Below, in pieces: positions 7,696 to 11,872 of a stretch of 20,938 nucleotides of DNA. Source of the DNA: a virus. Position numbers and translations under genes: made by a program. The notes beneath the pieces were generated by a model. It was not told the origin of the DNA. It made no database searches and was given only the letters and a program-made list of their open reading frames with translations. The number at the start of each line of letters is the position of its first letter. Within the stretch, counting starts at the first letter, position 1. Location of the stretch: positions 1 to 20,938 of the IMG/VR virus record IMGVR_UViG_3300034272_002176, one strand, 5' to 3'.

Positions 7696-8094
7696 ATGCC
7701 ATCCGTAAAAATCGAACTAGGTGAACAGAAACAAGCAATCGAAGCAGGTATCCACCTTGCCAAGATCACAGACGCAGTCGAGGCTATCTCTAAAGCCGGC
7801 AACGACATGTTGAAGCTGGAGGTCGCAGTTGGACCTCTCAAATTCAACAGTTGGGTAGTCTTCACAACGAAGAACTCGCGCAACCTGGCTGACTTTGCTG
7901 AAGCTATCGGTCTGAAAGTTGTAGACGGCAAAGCGCTGGCTATCGAAATCGACGACTGCGTAGGCAAGGTCGCAAAGGTAGAGCTTGCCCCCGGCGAGAA
8001 GATCAGCGAGAAGACAGGCAAAGCATACCTCGAAATCAAGAGGTGGCTGCCAGTTGACGCGACAGATGTGAGCGGGGACGAGATCCCGTTCTAA
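7696..8094 (+). CDS. DUF669-like ssDNA-binding protein candidate
   Basis: The protein has 132 residues with alternating strands in the middle (KLEVAVG, FNSWVVFTT, GKALAIEIDD, GKVAKVELAPG, KAYLEIKRWLP) and an acidic-aromatic C-terminus, DEIPF. This tail mimics the DDIPF tip by which bacterial SSB recruits partner proteins. Phage DUF669 proteins found beside RecT-type recombinases have the same look. The likely role is to coat ssDNA in recombination and replication. The A/C-rich leader before the ATG (CCCCAAACCAACAAAACC) has no Shine-Dalgarno. I saw no OB-fold signature that would be decisive. Confidence 0.7.
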   Translation: MPSVKIELGEQKQAIEAGIHLAKITDAVEAISKAGNDMLKLEVAVGPLKFNSWVVFTTKNSRNLADFAEAIGLKVVDGKALAIEIDDCVGKVAKVELAPGEKISEKTGKAYLEIKRWLPVDATDVSGDEIPF

Positions 8095-8368: not shown

Positions 8369-9709
8369 ATGAGAGACCTAACCATCCCGCAGGCTGAGCA
8401 AGCCGAGCGGGCGGTGCTGGGGTGCCTGTTATTTGCACCTCATACGGCACTGCCTACCCTAGTCGCAAAGGGGCTGACCCAAAGCGACTTTCATAACCCA
8501 CAGTTTGGCGCCATTTACGCCGGCGTACAGGAAGGCGTACGTTCTGGCCTGAGCCTTGACCCCATTGGTCTGGCAACGCACTTAGCGAAGAAGGGTATTG
8601 CGTATGCGCTCCTCACAGAGCTTGCAACGGCAATGCCCTCTCTTGAACCGCTACCGAGCTGGTGCGAACTGGTTCAAGACGCAGCCCGGCGCAGGGAATT
8701 GCTCTCTGCTGTCCTGAAGGCTACTAAGGCCATCTCGGCCGGAGAAGCCACAGAAGAGGTTGTCGCGGGCCTGAGCGTGGCAACGCTGGCGGCCAATGCT
8801 GAACGTGGGCTGGGTTCTATAGTACAGTCTACGTTCAATGACCTATTGGCCTATGATACAGAGAACGATAGCAACACACTGATCGGCAACCGCTGGCTGT
8901 GTAAGGGCGGGAGTGTGCTCATTAATGCTCAGTCTGGTATCGGGAAGTCCAGCTTGACGATGCAGTTGGCAATAGGCTGGGCGCTCCACGGGATTGGTGC
9001 TTTCTCACATGTGCTCACCTTTGGGCTCACGCCGGTCAAGCCACTAAAGAGTCTGATCCTTCAAGCCGAGAACGACCAGGGCGATCAGGCTGAGATCTTG
9101 CAATCTGTCTTTTGCAAGTATGGGAAGCACCAATGTGGAGAGACTGAGCGGCAGCTACTGAATGAGAGGCTTGTCTTTTATCGGGACAACGTCCATTCAG
9201 GACAGGATTTCATCAGGGTGCTAGAGACTCTTGTCATCAAGCATCAGCCAGACATCGTGTGGATTGACCCACTGATGTGCTACTTGGGAGATGACATCAG
9301 TGACCAAGCAGTAGTGACGAAGTTCTGTAACGAACTCAACAGGATCAGCACTAAGACAGGTGTACTTTTGGCAGTCATTCATCACCTTCCAAAGCCAAGA
9401 GAGAACGGTCCAAAGACGGACTCAGACCTAGCTTATGCAGGCTTTGGATCGAGTGCATTGACTAACTGGGCGCGTGAGGTCATCACGTTGCAGCGGGTTG
9501 AGACGCCTGATAAAGACCCTTTGACGTGTAGTCTGACGATGACTAAACGCAGATTGCGCTCCGACATCAGGTGCTTTGAGAAAGGGATTCCCACTTCAAA
9601 GATCTACATTCGCCACAGCCCTACTCCTGAGAAACACGGCATGATTTGGCAGCAATGCTTAAAACCAATTATCGAAAGTGACGAAGAGAAATCAAAAAGA
9701 AGACGATGA
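8369..9709 (+). CDS. Replicative helicase-like ATPase: DnaB N-domain plus RepA/RecA-type core
   Basis: The protein has 446 residues. Residues about 7-100 resemble the DnaB N-terminal domain (PQAEQAERAVLGCLL near the start). After a linker comes a RecA-type ATPase with Walker A AQSGIGKS (187-194), a second strand LILQAEND (229-236), Walker B DIVWIDP (295-301) and VIHHLPKP (about 342), a typical RepA/AAA_25 feature. The core looks more like plasmid RepA hexameric helicases than DnaB itself, so the combination is unusual. It ends in a basic tail (KSKRRR). It probably unwinds DNA at the origin located in the initiator gene 0.9 kb downstream. ATGA coupling links it to the next gene. Confidence 0.8.
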   Translation: MRDLTIPQAEQAERAVLGCLLFAPHTALPTLVAKGLTQSDFHNPQFGAIYAGVQEGVRSGLSLDPIGLATHLAKKGIAYALLTELATAMPSLEPLPSWCELVQDAARRRELLSAVLKATKAISAGEATEEVVAGLSVATLAANAERGLGSIVQSTFNDLLAYDTENDSNTLIGNRWLCKGGSVLINAQSGIGKSSLTMQLAIGWALHGIGAFSHVLTFGLTPVKPLKSLILQAENDQGDQAEILQSVFCKYGKHQCGETERQLLNERLVFYRDNVHSGQDFIRVLETLVIKHQPDIVWIDPLMCYLGDDISDQAVVTKFCNELNRISTKTGVLLAVIHHLPKPRENGPKTDSDLAYAGFGSSALTNWAREVITLQRVETPDKDPLTCSLTMTKRRLRSDIRCFEKGIPTSKIYIRHSPTPEKHGMIWQQCLKPIIESDEEKSKRRR

Positions 9710-10257
9710 ACTACACAAAGATCGGAGCACTACCAACACACCGCTACATATGGGTGGACAGTCAGTACACTCATGAAGAGCCCTGTGGCCTCGTAGAAGC
9801 CATGTGGGTGGGCCTGACATCTATTCCCGGGCGGGCATGGGGCATCAATGTCATCTTGCGAGACGGGGGCGCCTTGTACAGGAACATCCCGCCTCATGCT
9901 GTCTCATTCACAGCAGGTCCGAAGCAGGAATGGAACATCAGTAATGCCCAGCTTTGGGACTGCTACAGCTACCATTTTGCAGTGCTCCAAAACCCGATTA
10001 TGCGTGGAATGGAGGTGAGTGTAAGGCTAAAAACCGACGTAATTTCGCATGGGCAATACCTTTTTTCGACTGCTCACATGCACGACGGCTGGTCTGACAG
10101 CCCGGATCAGGACAAGGAGTTTATCTTTGTGCAGCTCGATTGTGGCCGGCTAACGATCCAGCCCACCAACAGAGTGCGCTTCATTGACCGTAGCTTCACG
10201 ACAGATGCGCTACCAAAGTTGAAATTGCAAGAAACAGTCTATAGTTGCGAGAAATGA
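9706..10257 (+). CDS. Conserved-looking phage protein of unknown function
   Basis: This 183-residue protein is coupled by ATGA on both sides, between the helicase and the initiator. It has many aromatic residues and strand-like segments, with a distinctive part HMHDGWSDSPDQDKEFIFVQ followed by LTIQPTNRVRFIDRSF. I recall similar wording in unnamed phage proteins but can assign no function. The tight coupling inside the replication module suggests it is co-produced with the helicase and initiator. No membrane or signal segment. Confidence 0.75.
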   Translation: MNYTKIGALPTHRYIWVDSQYTHEEPCGLVEAMWVGLTSIPGRAWGINVILRDGGALYRNIPPHAVSFTAGPKQEWNISNAQLWDCYSYHFAVLQNPIMRGMEVSVRLKTDVISHGQYLFSTAHMHDGWSDSPDQDKEFIFVQLDCGRLTIQPTNRVRFIDRSFTTDALPKLKLQETVYSCEK

Positions 10258-10922
10258 ATCCACGTTCTGAGAACCCAAGAGAAGAAGGCCCATGGGGCTG
10301 GCAAGCACGAGATGCTGCTGCCCAGGCAGGCCAGCTAGGCATCAACCATCACTCAGTTTACTGCGCCCTTACCCACTTCCAGAGCGCAGCAGCGACTGAC
10401 CACAAACGGAGGTTTGCTGCCAGTTACGAGCAGCTCGCAGAGTACTTGAAGTGCTCAACGAAGACGATCCAGAGGTGCTTGGGCGACCTGCAAAAGGCCG
10501 GCCTTGTCAGGATCTTTTCTGGCGCAAACGGAAGCAACAGGAACACCCGTAACGCCTTTTTTTTGACCTCGATTAGTAGGGACTGTGAGTCCCAACGTAG
10601 GGACTATAAGTCCACATTGCCGAAGGACTGTGAGTCCCTACCACCGAAGGACTATAAGTCCCACCTTAATAAGAAAAAGAACAAATACAAGGCGGGGCCT
10701 CAAGCCCCCGCCGTTGTATTAAAGAAAGCAGAACCGCAGCCCACTTGCCCGCCCCTGACGGGCGGCAGTGGTCCACGAAAGAACCCGGAGATTATCCACG
10801 ACTTTTCGCACCTGCCAGAGCGTGACAGGGCGTACATGGTGATGATGCGTGCAATTGCTGCTGAGGCTGACGAGGCGATTGCGGAACAGCGCAGGCAAGC
10901 AGAGGCTGAAAACTTTTCCTAA
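10254..10922 (+). CDS. Winged-helix replication initiator (lambda O-like organisation)
   Basis: The protein has 222 residues from the ATG at 10254 (ATGA overlap); a TTG at 10245 is possible but less likely. The N-terminal 105 residues contain a winged helix-turn-helix: HHSVYCALTHFQ, RFAASYEQLAEYLKCSTKTI and RCLGDLQKAGLVRIFSG, then a wing. This is the pattern of phage and plasmid initiators and replisome organisers. Residues about 109-137 are a repetitive linker (four copies of K/R-D-C/Y-E/K-S) forced by four DNA iterons in the gene. The rest is a Pro/Ala-rich linker and a C-terminal helix (DRAYMVMMRAIAAEADEAI) that could contact the helicase. Gene order helicase-unknown-initiator differs from lambda O-P, but the embedded origin is alike. 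Confidence 0.8.
   Translation: MNPRSENPREEGPWGWQARDAAAQAGQLGINHHSVYCALTHFQSAAATDHKRRFAASYEQLAEYLKCSTKTIQRCLGDLQKAGLVRIFSGANGSNRNTRNAFFLTSISRDCESQRRDYKSTLPKDCESLPPKDYKSHLNKKKNKYKAGPQAPAVVLKKAEPQPTCPPLTGGSGPRKNPEIIHDFSHLPERDRAYMVMMRAIAAEADEAIAEQRRQAEAENFS
10579..10662 (+). repeat. Four palindromic iterons, candidate replication origin
   Basis: Four 15-base near-palindromes of form GGGACT-N3-AGTCCC lie at 10579-10593, 10600-10614, 10624-10638 and 10648-10662. The central triplets alternate GTG, ATA, GTG, ATA. Copy starts are 21, 24 and 24 bases apart, about two helical turns, so all sites face roughly the same side of the DNA. They lie in the middle of the initiator gene, where it encodes a flexible linker. 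This matches the layout of the lambda origin. An A-rich stretch follows directly. Confidence 0.75.
10667..10690 (+). other. A-rich segment, candidate DNA unwinding element
   Basis: Directly after the fourth iteron there is a purine-biased, A-rich stretch (TAATAAGAAAAAGAAC and the next few bases). In lambda-type origins an AT-rich unwinding element follows the iterons. The role here is inferred from position and composition. Confidence 0.5.
10686..10718 (+). other. Strong hairpin next to the origin
   Basis: TACAA-GGCGGGG (10686-10697) pairs with CCCCGCC-G-TTGTA (10706-10718), giving 12 bp with one bulged G and an 8-base loop. It lies inside the initiator gene just after the A-rich segment. 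It could be a primosome loading or priming site, or simply a coding coincidence of Pro/Ala codons. Confidence 0.5.
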
Positions 10923-10955
10923 AGTCCAAGCCGACCCAAGCCGATACCAACTTTG

Positions 10956-11255
10956 ATGACAACGACACACCACACCAACTCGCTCATCAGGGACGTAATC
11001 ATCCCTGAGGAGATTGCAGTGCTTAAACGCACCATTAGCCGGCTGGCTCAACGAGCCAACGAACTCGAAGGTCACCTCAGGGCAGCAATCTGCCTCCTCG
11101 ACCACGTTGACGCGACCAGCGTGAACTTGTACTGGGGAACGCAATCTCAGTTTATGAATGATCGCAGAGACCTGCATCATGCTTTTGAACAGCTAACTAA
11201 ACTGCCAATAGAGGCCCTTGGCAGCCCCGTGAAGGTGCCTAACCCACTCGACTAA
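10956..11255 (+). CDS. Small helical protein of unknown function
   Basis: The protein has 99 residues from the ATG at 10956. A long helix (about residues 15-45, IPEEIAVLKRTISRLAQRA) with heptad-like spacing is followed by a His/Asp-rich second helical part. No family recognised. It is the first of six consecutive small genes running to 12251, probably a single early transcript. It is separated from the next gene by one base. Confidence 0.6.
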   Translation: MTTTHHTNSLIRDVIIPEEIAVLKRTISRLAQRANELEGHLRAAICLLDHVDATSVNLYWGTQSQFMNDRRDLHHAFEQLTKLPIEALGSPVKVPNPLD

Positions 11256-11256
11256 T

Positions 11257-11460
11257 ATGACCACAGCCAACGATATGAAAACTAGGGCGCAACTCGATGA
11301 TGAGATTGCTGACCTAAAAGAGGCTCTCACCATTGCAGTGGAGACAGCGGCAGAGTTGCTCAGGATTGGGCAACCTCAAGTGCGAAACAGGCAGAGTTTA
11401 CTGACATGGAGTCAGCTTGCAGTGGCCGTAGACATTCTTAAGCGGGAGGTGCAGAAGTGA
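11257..11460 (+). CDS. Small helical protein of unknown function
   Basis: This 67-residue protein is mostly helix (TRAQLDDEIADLKEALTIAV and then WSQLAVAVDILKREVQK) with a short polar middle. The leucine and alanine spacing suggests a coiled coil. It is coupled to the next gene by a GTGA overlap at 11457-11460. Function unknown. Confidence 0.6.
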   Translation: MTTANDMKTRAQLDDEIADLKEALTIAVETAAELLRIGQPQVRNRQSLLTWSQLAVAVDILKREVQK

Positions 11461-11693
11461 AATCAATCCGTTGGGACGAAAACACCATCATCACGTTTTC
11501 TGATTTTTCCGATCAAGAAATTACCGTGAACGGCAAAGTGTGGCGATTTGACTACGATAGGCGCCTAGGGCCCTTATGGCTCAAGAAAGACGGGAGTGAG
11601 AGAAGTTGCCAGAATCCAAACAAAGCCGTATGGAAGGCTTTTGAGCAGTGGCTAATTGAACACGATAAAAACACGGAATTGAACACGAATTGA
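11457..11693 (+). CDS. Small phage protein, C-terminus in a tandem repeat
   Basis: This 78-residue protein starts with GTG at 11457, overlapping the previous stop. It is strand-rich at first (ITFSDFSDQEITVNGKVWRF) and then carries a pattern that looks conserved (FDYDRRLGPLWLKKDGSER). The last residues, from LIEHD to the stop, are encoded by copies of an 11-base repeat, and the stop codon itself lies in the second tandem copy. The true ancestral C-terminus may therefore have changed by repeat gain or loss. Function unknown. Confidence 0.6.
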   Translation: MKSIRWDENTIITFSDFSDQEITVNGKVWRFDYDRRLGPLWLKKDGSERSCQNPNKAVWKAFEQWLIEHDKNTELNTN

Positions 11694-11709
11694 ACACGAA
11701 TTGAACACG
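11654..11709 (+). repeat. 11-base tandem repeat AATTGAACACG
   Basis: Three perfect head-to-tail copies lie at 11677-11687, 11688-11698 and 11699-11709, with one further copy 13 bases upstream at 11654-11664. They span the end of one gene and the 17-base gap before the next ATG at 11711. The unit is not a multiple of three, so any change in copy number would alter the upstream reading frame end and the downstream leader spacing. Confidence 0.9.
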
Positions 11710-11710
11710 A

Positions 11711-11872
11711 ATGAAAAACAAGGAAGAACTCGATGCTGTCTGGGAGCTACTGCACCGGGCCATGTCAGTGATTGATGACCTGACAAGCCTCAGACCAATT
11801 GCGTCAAGGCTGGAGCAGGAGATTGAGGAGATCCAGGATGAGATCGCTGAGATTGAAGGGAGGCAGGAATGA
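11711..11872 (+). CDS. Very small coiled-coil protein
   Basis: This 53-residue protein starts just after the tandem repeat. Nearly the whole chain is helical and charged: ELDAVWELLHRAMSVIDDL, then RLEQEIEEIQDEIAEIEG with clear heptad spacing of Leu and Ile. Both ends fit the local pattern: it starts after the repeat and overlaps the next gene by ATGA. It is probably real, with unknown function; a protein-protein adaptor or dimeric small regulator is plausible. Confidence 0.65.
   Translation: MKNKEELDAVWELLHRAMSVIDDLTSLRPIASRLEQEIEEIQDEIAEIEGRQE

Follow-up and report, generated by a model that had tools for sequence, protein, structure and literature searches.

We analysed a virus record of 20,938 bases, referred to as the window in its full length. 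Its portal gene is P22-like, with the best match in MW202867 (Caudoviricetes sp., spring; 69% identity over 87%), and RecT-like, exonuclease and Holliday-resolvase genes were also recognised by Pfam or PHROG matches. The replication region encodes a likely single-strand binding protein, a DnaB-like helicase and a replication initiator of 222 residues (Table 1); the helicase had been proposed in a preliminary description of this DNA, and its DnaB_N and AAA_25 domains bear this out. The gene between helicase and initiator (9706-10257) matched PHROG 3704, 'ferredoxin' (E 5e-31). A gene of this type gave no tblastn match in the stretches of many relatives, and in some relatives the helicase ends directly at the initiator start. 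A short tandem repeat with an 11-base unit (AACACGAATTG) was seen by eye at the end of a small gene (about 11669-11712). Rfam returned nothing at gathering scores, ARAGORN found no tRNA, and the GC-skew check suggested earlier revealed no clear switch at the iteron site and was uninformative.

Table 1. Coordinates of the replication genes and of the candidate origin elements in the window
Feature	Position	Strand	Basis
Likely single-strand binding protein gene	7696..8094	+	PHROG 378, E 3e-5; replication-region context
DnaB-like helicase gene	8369..9709	+	Pfam DnaB_N + AAA_25; PHROG DnaB-like
Replication initiator gene, 222 aa (winged-helix domain, disordered linker, C-terminal helix)	10254..10922	+	ORF, HTH_36, PHROG, AlphaFold2 model
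Recognition-helix codons (residues 69-81; class residues T69, K70, Q73, R74)	10458..10496	+	model; covariation with iteron arms
Iteron 1, GGACTGTGAGTCC	10580..10592	+	exact GGACT-N3-AGTCC
Iteron 2, GGACTATAAGTCC	10601..10613	+	exact GGACT-N3-AGTCC
Iteron 3, GGACTGTGAGTCC	10625..10637	+	exact GGACT-N3-AGTCC
Iteron 4, GGACTATAAGTCC	10649..10661	+	exact GGACT-N3-AGTCC
A-rich segment, candidate unwinding element	10664..10690 (about)	+	composition
Hairpin 1 (inner 5-bp stem, loop CTCAA, one-base 3' bulge, outer stem)	10691..10712	.	covariation
Hairpin 2, CGCCC-CTGAC-GGGCG, weaker evidence	10750..10764	.	partial covariation
C-terminal tail codons, candidate helicase-docking part	10791..10919	+	covaries with helicase

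The window protein matched HTH_36 (PF13730) at 25.1 bits, a borderline score just above the curated cut-off of 25; relative L074 scored 20.4 bits, under the cut-off, and matched HTH_Crp_2 better. Against PHROGs, the window protein matched O-like replication initiators (best E 2e-8, PHROG 678), and PHROG 678 was also matched by the lambda, P22 and phi80 control proteins. These controls matched PF04492 (Phage_rep_O) at 6e-25 or better, whereas the window protein had no match to it at E 0.1; hhalign of 37 family sequences against the three gave a probability of 14% (E 0.002), in the HTH only. RepA_N (PF06970) was absent among the 20 Pfam families listed for the window protein at E 0.1.

An AlphaFold2 model from a 37-row alignment (mean pLDDT 62.7) formed a winged helix, with the recognition helix at residues 69-81 and wing strands at 85-89 and 100-104. 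Residues 21-90 reached 76-90 by ten-residue block, residues 110-179, encoded by the putative origin DNA, stayed below 50, and confidence was low except in the winged helix and the C-terminal helix. Together with the HTH_36 match, the model upholds the earlier assignment as a winged-helix protein. Its matches among solved structures were general winged helices (TFE: Z 11.0, rmsd 2.0, 84 aligned; CRP: Z up to 9.4), with MarR-like and CRP-like proteins also found. The matches to 4pql and 4pt7 (Z 9.0 and 8.9, rmsd 3.6 and 3.5, 94 aligned) were equalled or exceeded by TFE, CRP and others. We take 4pql to be a staphylococcal RepA structure, as 4pt7 is. The latter is named among such structures in one report (PMC7145576). 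Foldseek against the PDB gave no match at E 0.001 or better, and a sequence-profile search of the PDB gave at best E 0.17, to general regulators; the best predicted viral protein match was A0A6J5NTP9 from an uncultured phage (49% identical).

As first described, the iterons, the A-rich stretch and the hairpin all lie within a single open frame. The iteron centres read GTG, ATA, GTG and ATA (TGTGA and TATAA in five-base form), at spacings of 21, 24 and 24. Four copies of GGGACT-N3-AGTCCC had been reported; the number and spacing stood, but the sixth arm pair is present in copy 1 only, the others having 5-bp arms. The alternation of GTG and ATA was discarded as a signal, because all four centres are GTG in L011, whose recognition helix is almost unchanged. 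With one mismatch allowed, the window held 5 matches to GGACT-N3-AGTCC, 4 of them the exact iterons, compared to a mean of 0.67 and a largest count of 3 in 100 dinucleotide shuffles, none of which reached 5. All 16 arm positions of the window gene were paired, which none of 2000 synonymous recodings equalled (mean 8.0, largest 15).

Palindromes, A-rich segment and hairpins in relatives

No relatives were detected in 50,697 phage records at E 1e-3, and none of 16 pattern-matching stretches in genome contigs was confirmed as a relative. Successive scans of viral contigs, with the contigs largely shared, yielded 6, then 41, then 49 loci. Leaving out L048 (cut at a contig end) and L014, L042, L047 and L095 (proteins identical to another locus) gave 44 loci, comprising 43 relatives and the window gene itself (L008, 100% identical). 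The relatives were 44-72% identical to the window protein in the 37-row alignment, and the distances from the start codon to the helix and to the wing end were constant in all 44 loci. Each locus carried three to five near-palindromes in the same place (179 iterons in total), with centres 20, 41, 65 and 89 nt past the wing codons in 39 loci, five iterons in L010, L020, L021 and L032, and three in L080.

Over the 44 loci, 611 of 716 arm positions from ±3 to ±6 were paired. For 57 distinct iterons from 37 loci, the paired fractions at ±3, ±4, ±5 and ±6 were 0.96, 0.89, 0.72 and 0.91, compared to shuffle maxima of 0.74, 0.86, 0.47 and 0.51. When every locus was recoded synonymously 2000 times, no recoding was equally palindromic in 35 loci, and 1 to 42 were in the other nine. 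The repeat peptides varied by class (RDCES, YDSQS, NAPQA, STPHG, KPSQG, RSPQD), yet a near-palindrome with other letters was kept in place, which is not the case named beforehand as refuting an origin, that is, a peptide repeat kept while the palindromes decay. Most iteron centres read [CT]CACA or the reverse complement of this; other forms, CCAGA and CAGTT, were common in the GTNCA class. Iteron 3 of L016, a CGCC-class locus, was a hybrid that combined a CGCC arm with a TGAC arm and may be left over from recombination between classes.

The A-rich stretch of the preliminary description was confirmed, with 25 nt at 76% A+T compared to 45% for the gene. All 44 loci had a segment of 25-31 nt at 53-76% A+T between the last iteron and the hairpin picked by script, which in L032 was another hairpin. 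The hairpin itself, described as 12 bp, is actually shorter: either 7 bp closing a loop of 8 nt or, if a single bulge is allowed, 8 bp. One 22-column fold fitted 43 of the 44 loci, being shortened in L081. Among eleven distinct sequences, 96.6% of cells were paired, 4 of 8 pairs were changed on both sides (equalled by 26 of 500 shuffles, and the pair types by 13), and the covariation was 0.427 compared to 0.113 when shuffled (0 of 500). In L011, L037 and L039 the hairpin is read in another frame, giving RAASSGSGS or RAAPSGSGS instead of APPQAAAG, which points to conservation of the DNA or RNA rather than of the peptide. In hairpin 2, 2 of 5 pairs were changed on both sides, equalled by 40 of 500 shuffles, and the pair types by 495 of 500. 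Hairpin 2 lies 36-40 bases past hairpin 1, and its loop often complements loop 1. Loop-loop kissing between the two (CTCAA with TTGAG) was considered and rejected, as the 176 paired positions out of 210 were equalled in 217 of 2000 shuffles.

A simple scan classed hairpin 1, together with its T-rich tail, as a terminator-like site of the - strand, so that the A-rich stretch and this hairpin could together be a leftward intrinsic terminator instead of an unwinding element and an origin hairpin. We consider this unlikely, though a reading to keep in mind, as the second common stem type has a T-poor adjoining tract on the - strand, the scan found 4 such sites against a shuffle mean of 2.2, and the order of the parts is the same at the annotated origin of P22.

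Recognition helix and iteron arms

We typed the recognition helix by residues 69, 70, 73 and 74 and sorted the iterons into seven arm classes. TKQR occurred with GGAC arms, ERAR with TGAC/TGCC, KNAR and KNSR with ACCC (some CCCC), QRCR with CGCC, RGKA, RGKT and RGNS with GTNCA, RGRI with GGTCA, and RAAR, in one locus, with GTATC-like arms. The distance between four-residue helices correlated with the distance between arms (r 0.92; 0.90 without the N-terminal distance; 0 of 2000 permutations), compared to 0.42 for the remaining N-terminus against the iterons. Arm position -3 was C in 25 of 25 loci with R74 and A in 19 of 19 without it. These natural variants hint, at the level of sequence, at the pairing of protein residues with the DNA bases that they read, and the number of independent inventions would be about seven, one per class, not 44.

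L013 and L017, the clearest pair of near-natural chimeras, differ in helix and iterons; compared in 30-nt blocks, they agree at 83-100% upstream of the helix and downstream of the iterons, and at 57-83% in the part enclosed. In L031 and L094 the arms are the same although the DNA ahead of the helix is 63% alike. The seven helix-plus-iteron classes required at least 20 changes on a quick maximum-likelihood tree built from 41 helicases, and all 13 supported independent pairs differing in R74 differed in base -3 in the same way (p 0.00024). When the tree was built from the first 198 bases of the initiator gene itself, there were 12 changes and only 2 supported independent pairs (p 0.5).

We also searched viral contigs for arrays of two GGACT-N3-AGTCC at 21-24-base spacing. 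This returned 33 viral stretches, two of them from the window family. In the others, a PHROG scan of spanning frames matched initiators in 17 of 20 (10 of 10 and 7 of 10). Counting these 17 together with L104 (sub-threshold HTH_36 match) and L110, L114, L117 and L133 (58-98% identical to L101), 22 of the 31 loci outside the family were assigned to initiators. The nine unassigned loci were L102, the one of them scanned with profiles and without a match, and L105, L106, L108, L122, L124, L126, L130 and L131. TGACT arrays occurred in 11 viral stretches, and 9 of 10 scanned frames matched initiators; the tenth, L283, had no N-terminal part within the stretch, and the eleventh stretch, L275, shows the same array as L282. 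CGCCY arrays (8 of 8 viral stretches) were all on window-family contigs, as were 7 of 9 ACCCT stretches; in the remaining two, L262 and L268, no initiator frame was recognisable by eye. A small control with GCAGT-N3-ACTGC gave 3 stretches (two nearly alike), none of them in an HTH gene by eye.

Residue 70 was K in 18, R in 3 and A in 1 of the 22 GGACT loci, whereas the 9 TGACT loci had R in 8 and A in 1 (p 3.5e-5 in Fisher's test over loci, but 0.43 over clusters, with 6 and 2 clusters from single linkage at E 1e-5). The same contrast is seen in the window family between TKQR (GGAC) and ERAR (TGAC). The distant helices were assigned by eye from a regex requiring R at position 74, so R74 is no independent evidence in this set. 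BLAST similarity of the window protein to some of these loci was weak (L107 was best, at 5e-6 against a database of 22 proteins), and they are thus distant rather than demonstrably unrelated. The association of residue 70 with arm type accordingly points towards a general code without proving one. In genome contigs, at least 120 stretches held GGACT arrays, and among the 80 matches listed, 39 had a spanning frame with at least 60 residues upstream. Also among the matches listed, many of L143-L220 were Prevotella/Bacteroidales contigs carrying GGACT-N3-AGTCC pairs, which are frequently spaced by 22 bases, occur several times in a genome and look like a separate dispersed element; HTH-like motifs found by regex were in five Streptomyces loci, one Anaerolineae locus and a few doubtful others.

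Part of the correlation between helix and iterons is due to linkage or joint transfer, since about 100-200 bp separate the two and they travel as one. That it is linkage only, with whole cassettes inherited jointly and no functional match, is a view favoured by this closeness and by how few independent changes find support on the tree of the initiator gene itself. We judge it improbable, given that L031 and L094 keep their class arms over different flanks, that new arms are palindromic again, and that a similar association appears in distant phages by locus, though not by cluster.

The C-terminal tail followed a different partner. Three of the 44 loci were without a near-full helicase, leaving 41, in which tail distance correlated with helicase distance (r 0.65, 0 of 2000 permutations), compared to r 0.07 for the helix and 0.06 for the iterons (112 and 218 of 2000). 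No part of the gene lies farther from the helicase than the tail, yet the tail tracks the helicase, and we infer that it is the helicase-docking part.

Comparison with known in-gene origins

The lambda-like layout that had been proposed is common to the window, lambda O, phi80 gp15 and P22 gp18. In all three known phages the iterons lie within the initiator gene past the DNA-binding part, as in the window, and A-rich DNA follows them; the window thus has both marks of the lambda-type in-gene architecture: an initiator gene that contains phased near-palindromic iterons, and an adjoining A-rich segment. The iterons are at 39034, 39054, 39078 and 39101 in lambda O (spacing 20/24/23) and at 36663, 36683, 36704 and 36725 in phi80 gp15 (20/21/21), compared to 21/24/24 in the window. 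Arms are perfect in at least one copy in lambda (TCCCTC/GAGGGA), phi80 (TTCCCG/CGGGAA) and P22 (GGTAAA/TTTACC). P22 gene 18 contains an annotated origin, and it resembles the window further in a GC-rich hairpin (CCCCCTT/AAGGGGG in P22) and an adjacent DnaB-like helicase gene, gene 12. The window differs from all three in its iteron letters, its lack of a PF04492 match, its shorter initiator (222 aa compared to 271-302) and its arrangement, with the helicase upstream of the initiator and one other gene between. By coordinates, the lambda iterons are not all in one reading frame, unlike those of the window family. The differing iteron had been taken as a sign of an independent instance, but this independence is unsupported because the iterons of lambda, phi80 and P22 also differ from each other and the PHROG 678 match is shared by all of them with the window. 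By anatomy, the in-gene origin probably works like those of lambda and P22; Pfam places its initiator outside Phage_rep_O, to which it may be distantly akin.

O proteins of different lambdoid phages are origin-specific. Two reports describe six iterons in Stx phages compared to four in lambda, and a lambda inhibition phenotype (PMC7466680, PMC3349717); iteron number likewise varies in the window family (3-5). According to a plasmid study, the RepA_N plasmid pSK41 carries its origin in the linker-coding centre of rep, where the winged-helix N-terminal domain binds four boxes, the chimera pPR9 had a module of about 500 bp, N-terminal domain plus origin, replaced by a pfam13730 (HTH_36) type, and in RepA_N plasmids the C-terminal domain binds host DnaG (PMC5703833). 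pSK41 and pPR9 share with the window family the in-linker origin and the exchange of the DNA-binding part with the origin; the family differs from pPR9 in a finer swap (helix, wing, iterons) made many times, in encoding a phage helicase and in having no RepA_N match. In PLE, the initiator RepA reads semi-palindromic iterons and origin specificity is under selection (PMC8263062, PMC7145576), the iterons escaping the ICP1 nuclease Odn, which mimics the initiator (PMC8263062). The PLE origin is described there as lying in a non-coding region, whereas the window origin would lie inside the initiator gene. Nuclease escape could, at a guess, be the selective cause of origin specificity in the window family too.

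The literature searched, at the level of titles and abstract openings and with few subscription papers included, yielded nothing on helix-iteron covariation in the window family or in similar phage families. What is new here is that specificity changes at least 20 times on the helicase tree and that arrays of two arm types recur within initiator genes of distant phages.

Proposed mechanism and significance

We regard it as highly probable that the locus is a theta-type phage origin inside the initiator gene, with an exchangeable cassette and a tail paired to the helicase. As far as sequence can establish them, the repeats, the covariation and the layout are secure. Dimer binding, opening and helicase loading are what we infer: a dimer of the winged-helix N-terminal domain would sit on each near-palindrome, with the recognition helix reading the arms, and three to five bound copies would form a nucleoprotein complex on the DNA encoding the protein's own disordered linker. 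The adjoining A-rich stretch would then open, and the C-terminal tail would recruit the phage DnaB-like helicase. Helix and iterons would make up one exchangeable specificity cassette, and tail and helicase another matched pair.

Palindromic dimer sites are typical of repressors, and the CRP-like and MarR-like winged-helix matches fit a protein that is an autoregulator or transcription factor, the repeats being operators with no origin function. This is very improbable in our view: the sites are more than 320 bp inside the gene, a simple scan of 9500-11500 placed all 3 of its promoter-like sites on the - strand and none on the + strand, the four phased copies precede an A-rich segment and a hairpin as in P22, the helicase gene lies upstream with the tail tracking it, and the PHROG matches are to initiators. 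Although the window copies encode similar four-residue units and, like all family iterons, share one frame, so that frame alone cannot exclude a peptide repeat (D-[CY]-[EK]-S) selected as protein with palindromy as a by-product, we give this almost no credence, as palindromy stays while the class peptides differ and is lost on synonymous recoding, and the stretch is unstructured in the model.

Beyond the preferred reading of an in-gene origin, we hold it possible, though short of probable, that the outward-facing residues of the recognition helix predict arms generally in HTH_36-type initiators, even among widely differing phages (K70 with GGACT, R70 with TGACT, R74 with C/G at position 3), and that swaps of about 200-bp cassettes escape incompatibility or origin-directed attack while the helicase and its matched tail are kept.

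In-gene origins were already known from lambda, P22 and RepA_N plasmids, as a few well-studied examples. GGACT or TGACT arm arrays served here as a search key for such origins in metagenome contigs. One uncultured family provides 44 natural variants that fall into seven arm classes and are in some cases almost isogenic beyond the cassette, and with such variants at hand the recognition code, replicon incompatibility between phages and the selective cause of origin switching become directly testable; the family also offers candidate orthogonal initiator/origin pairs.
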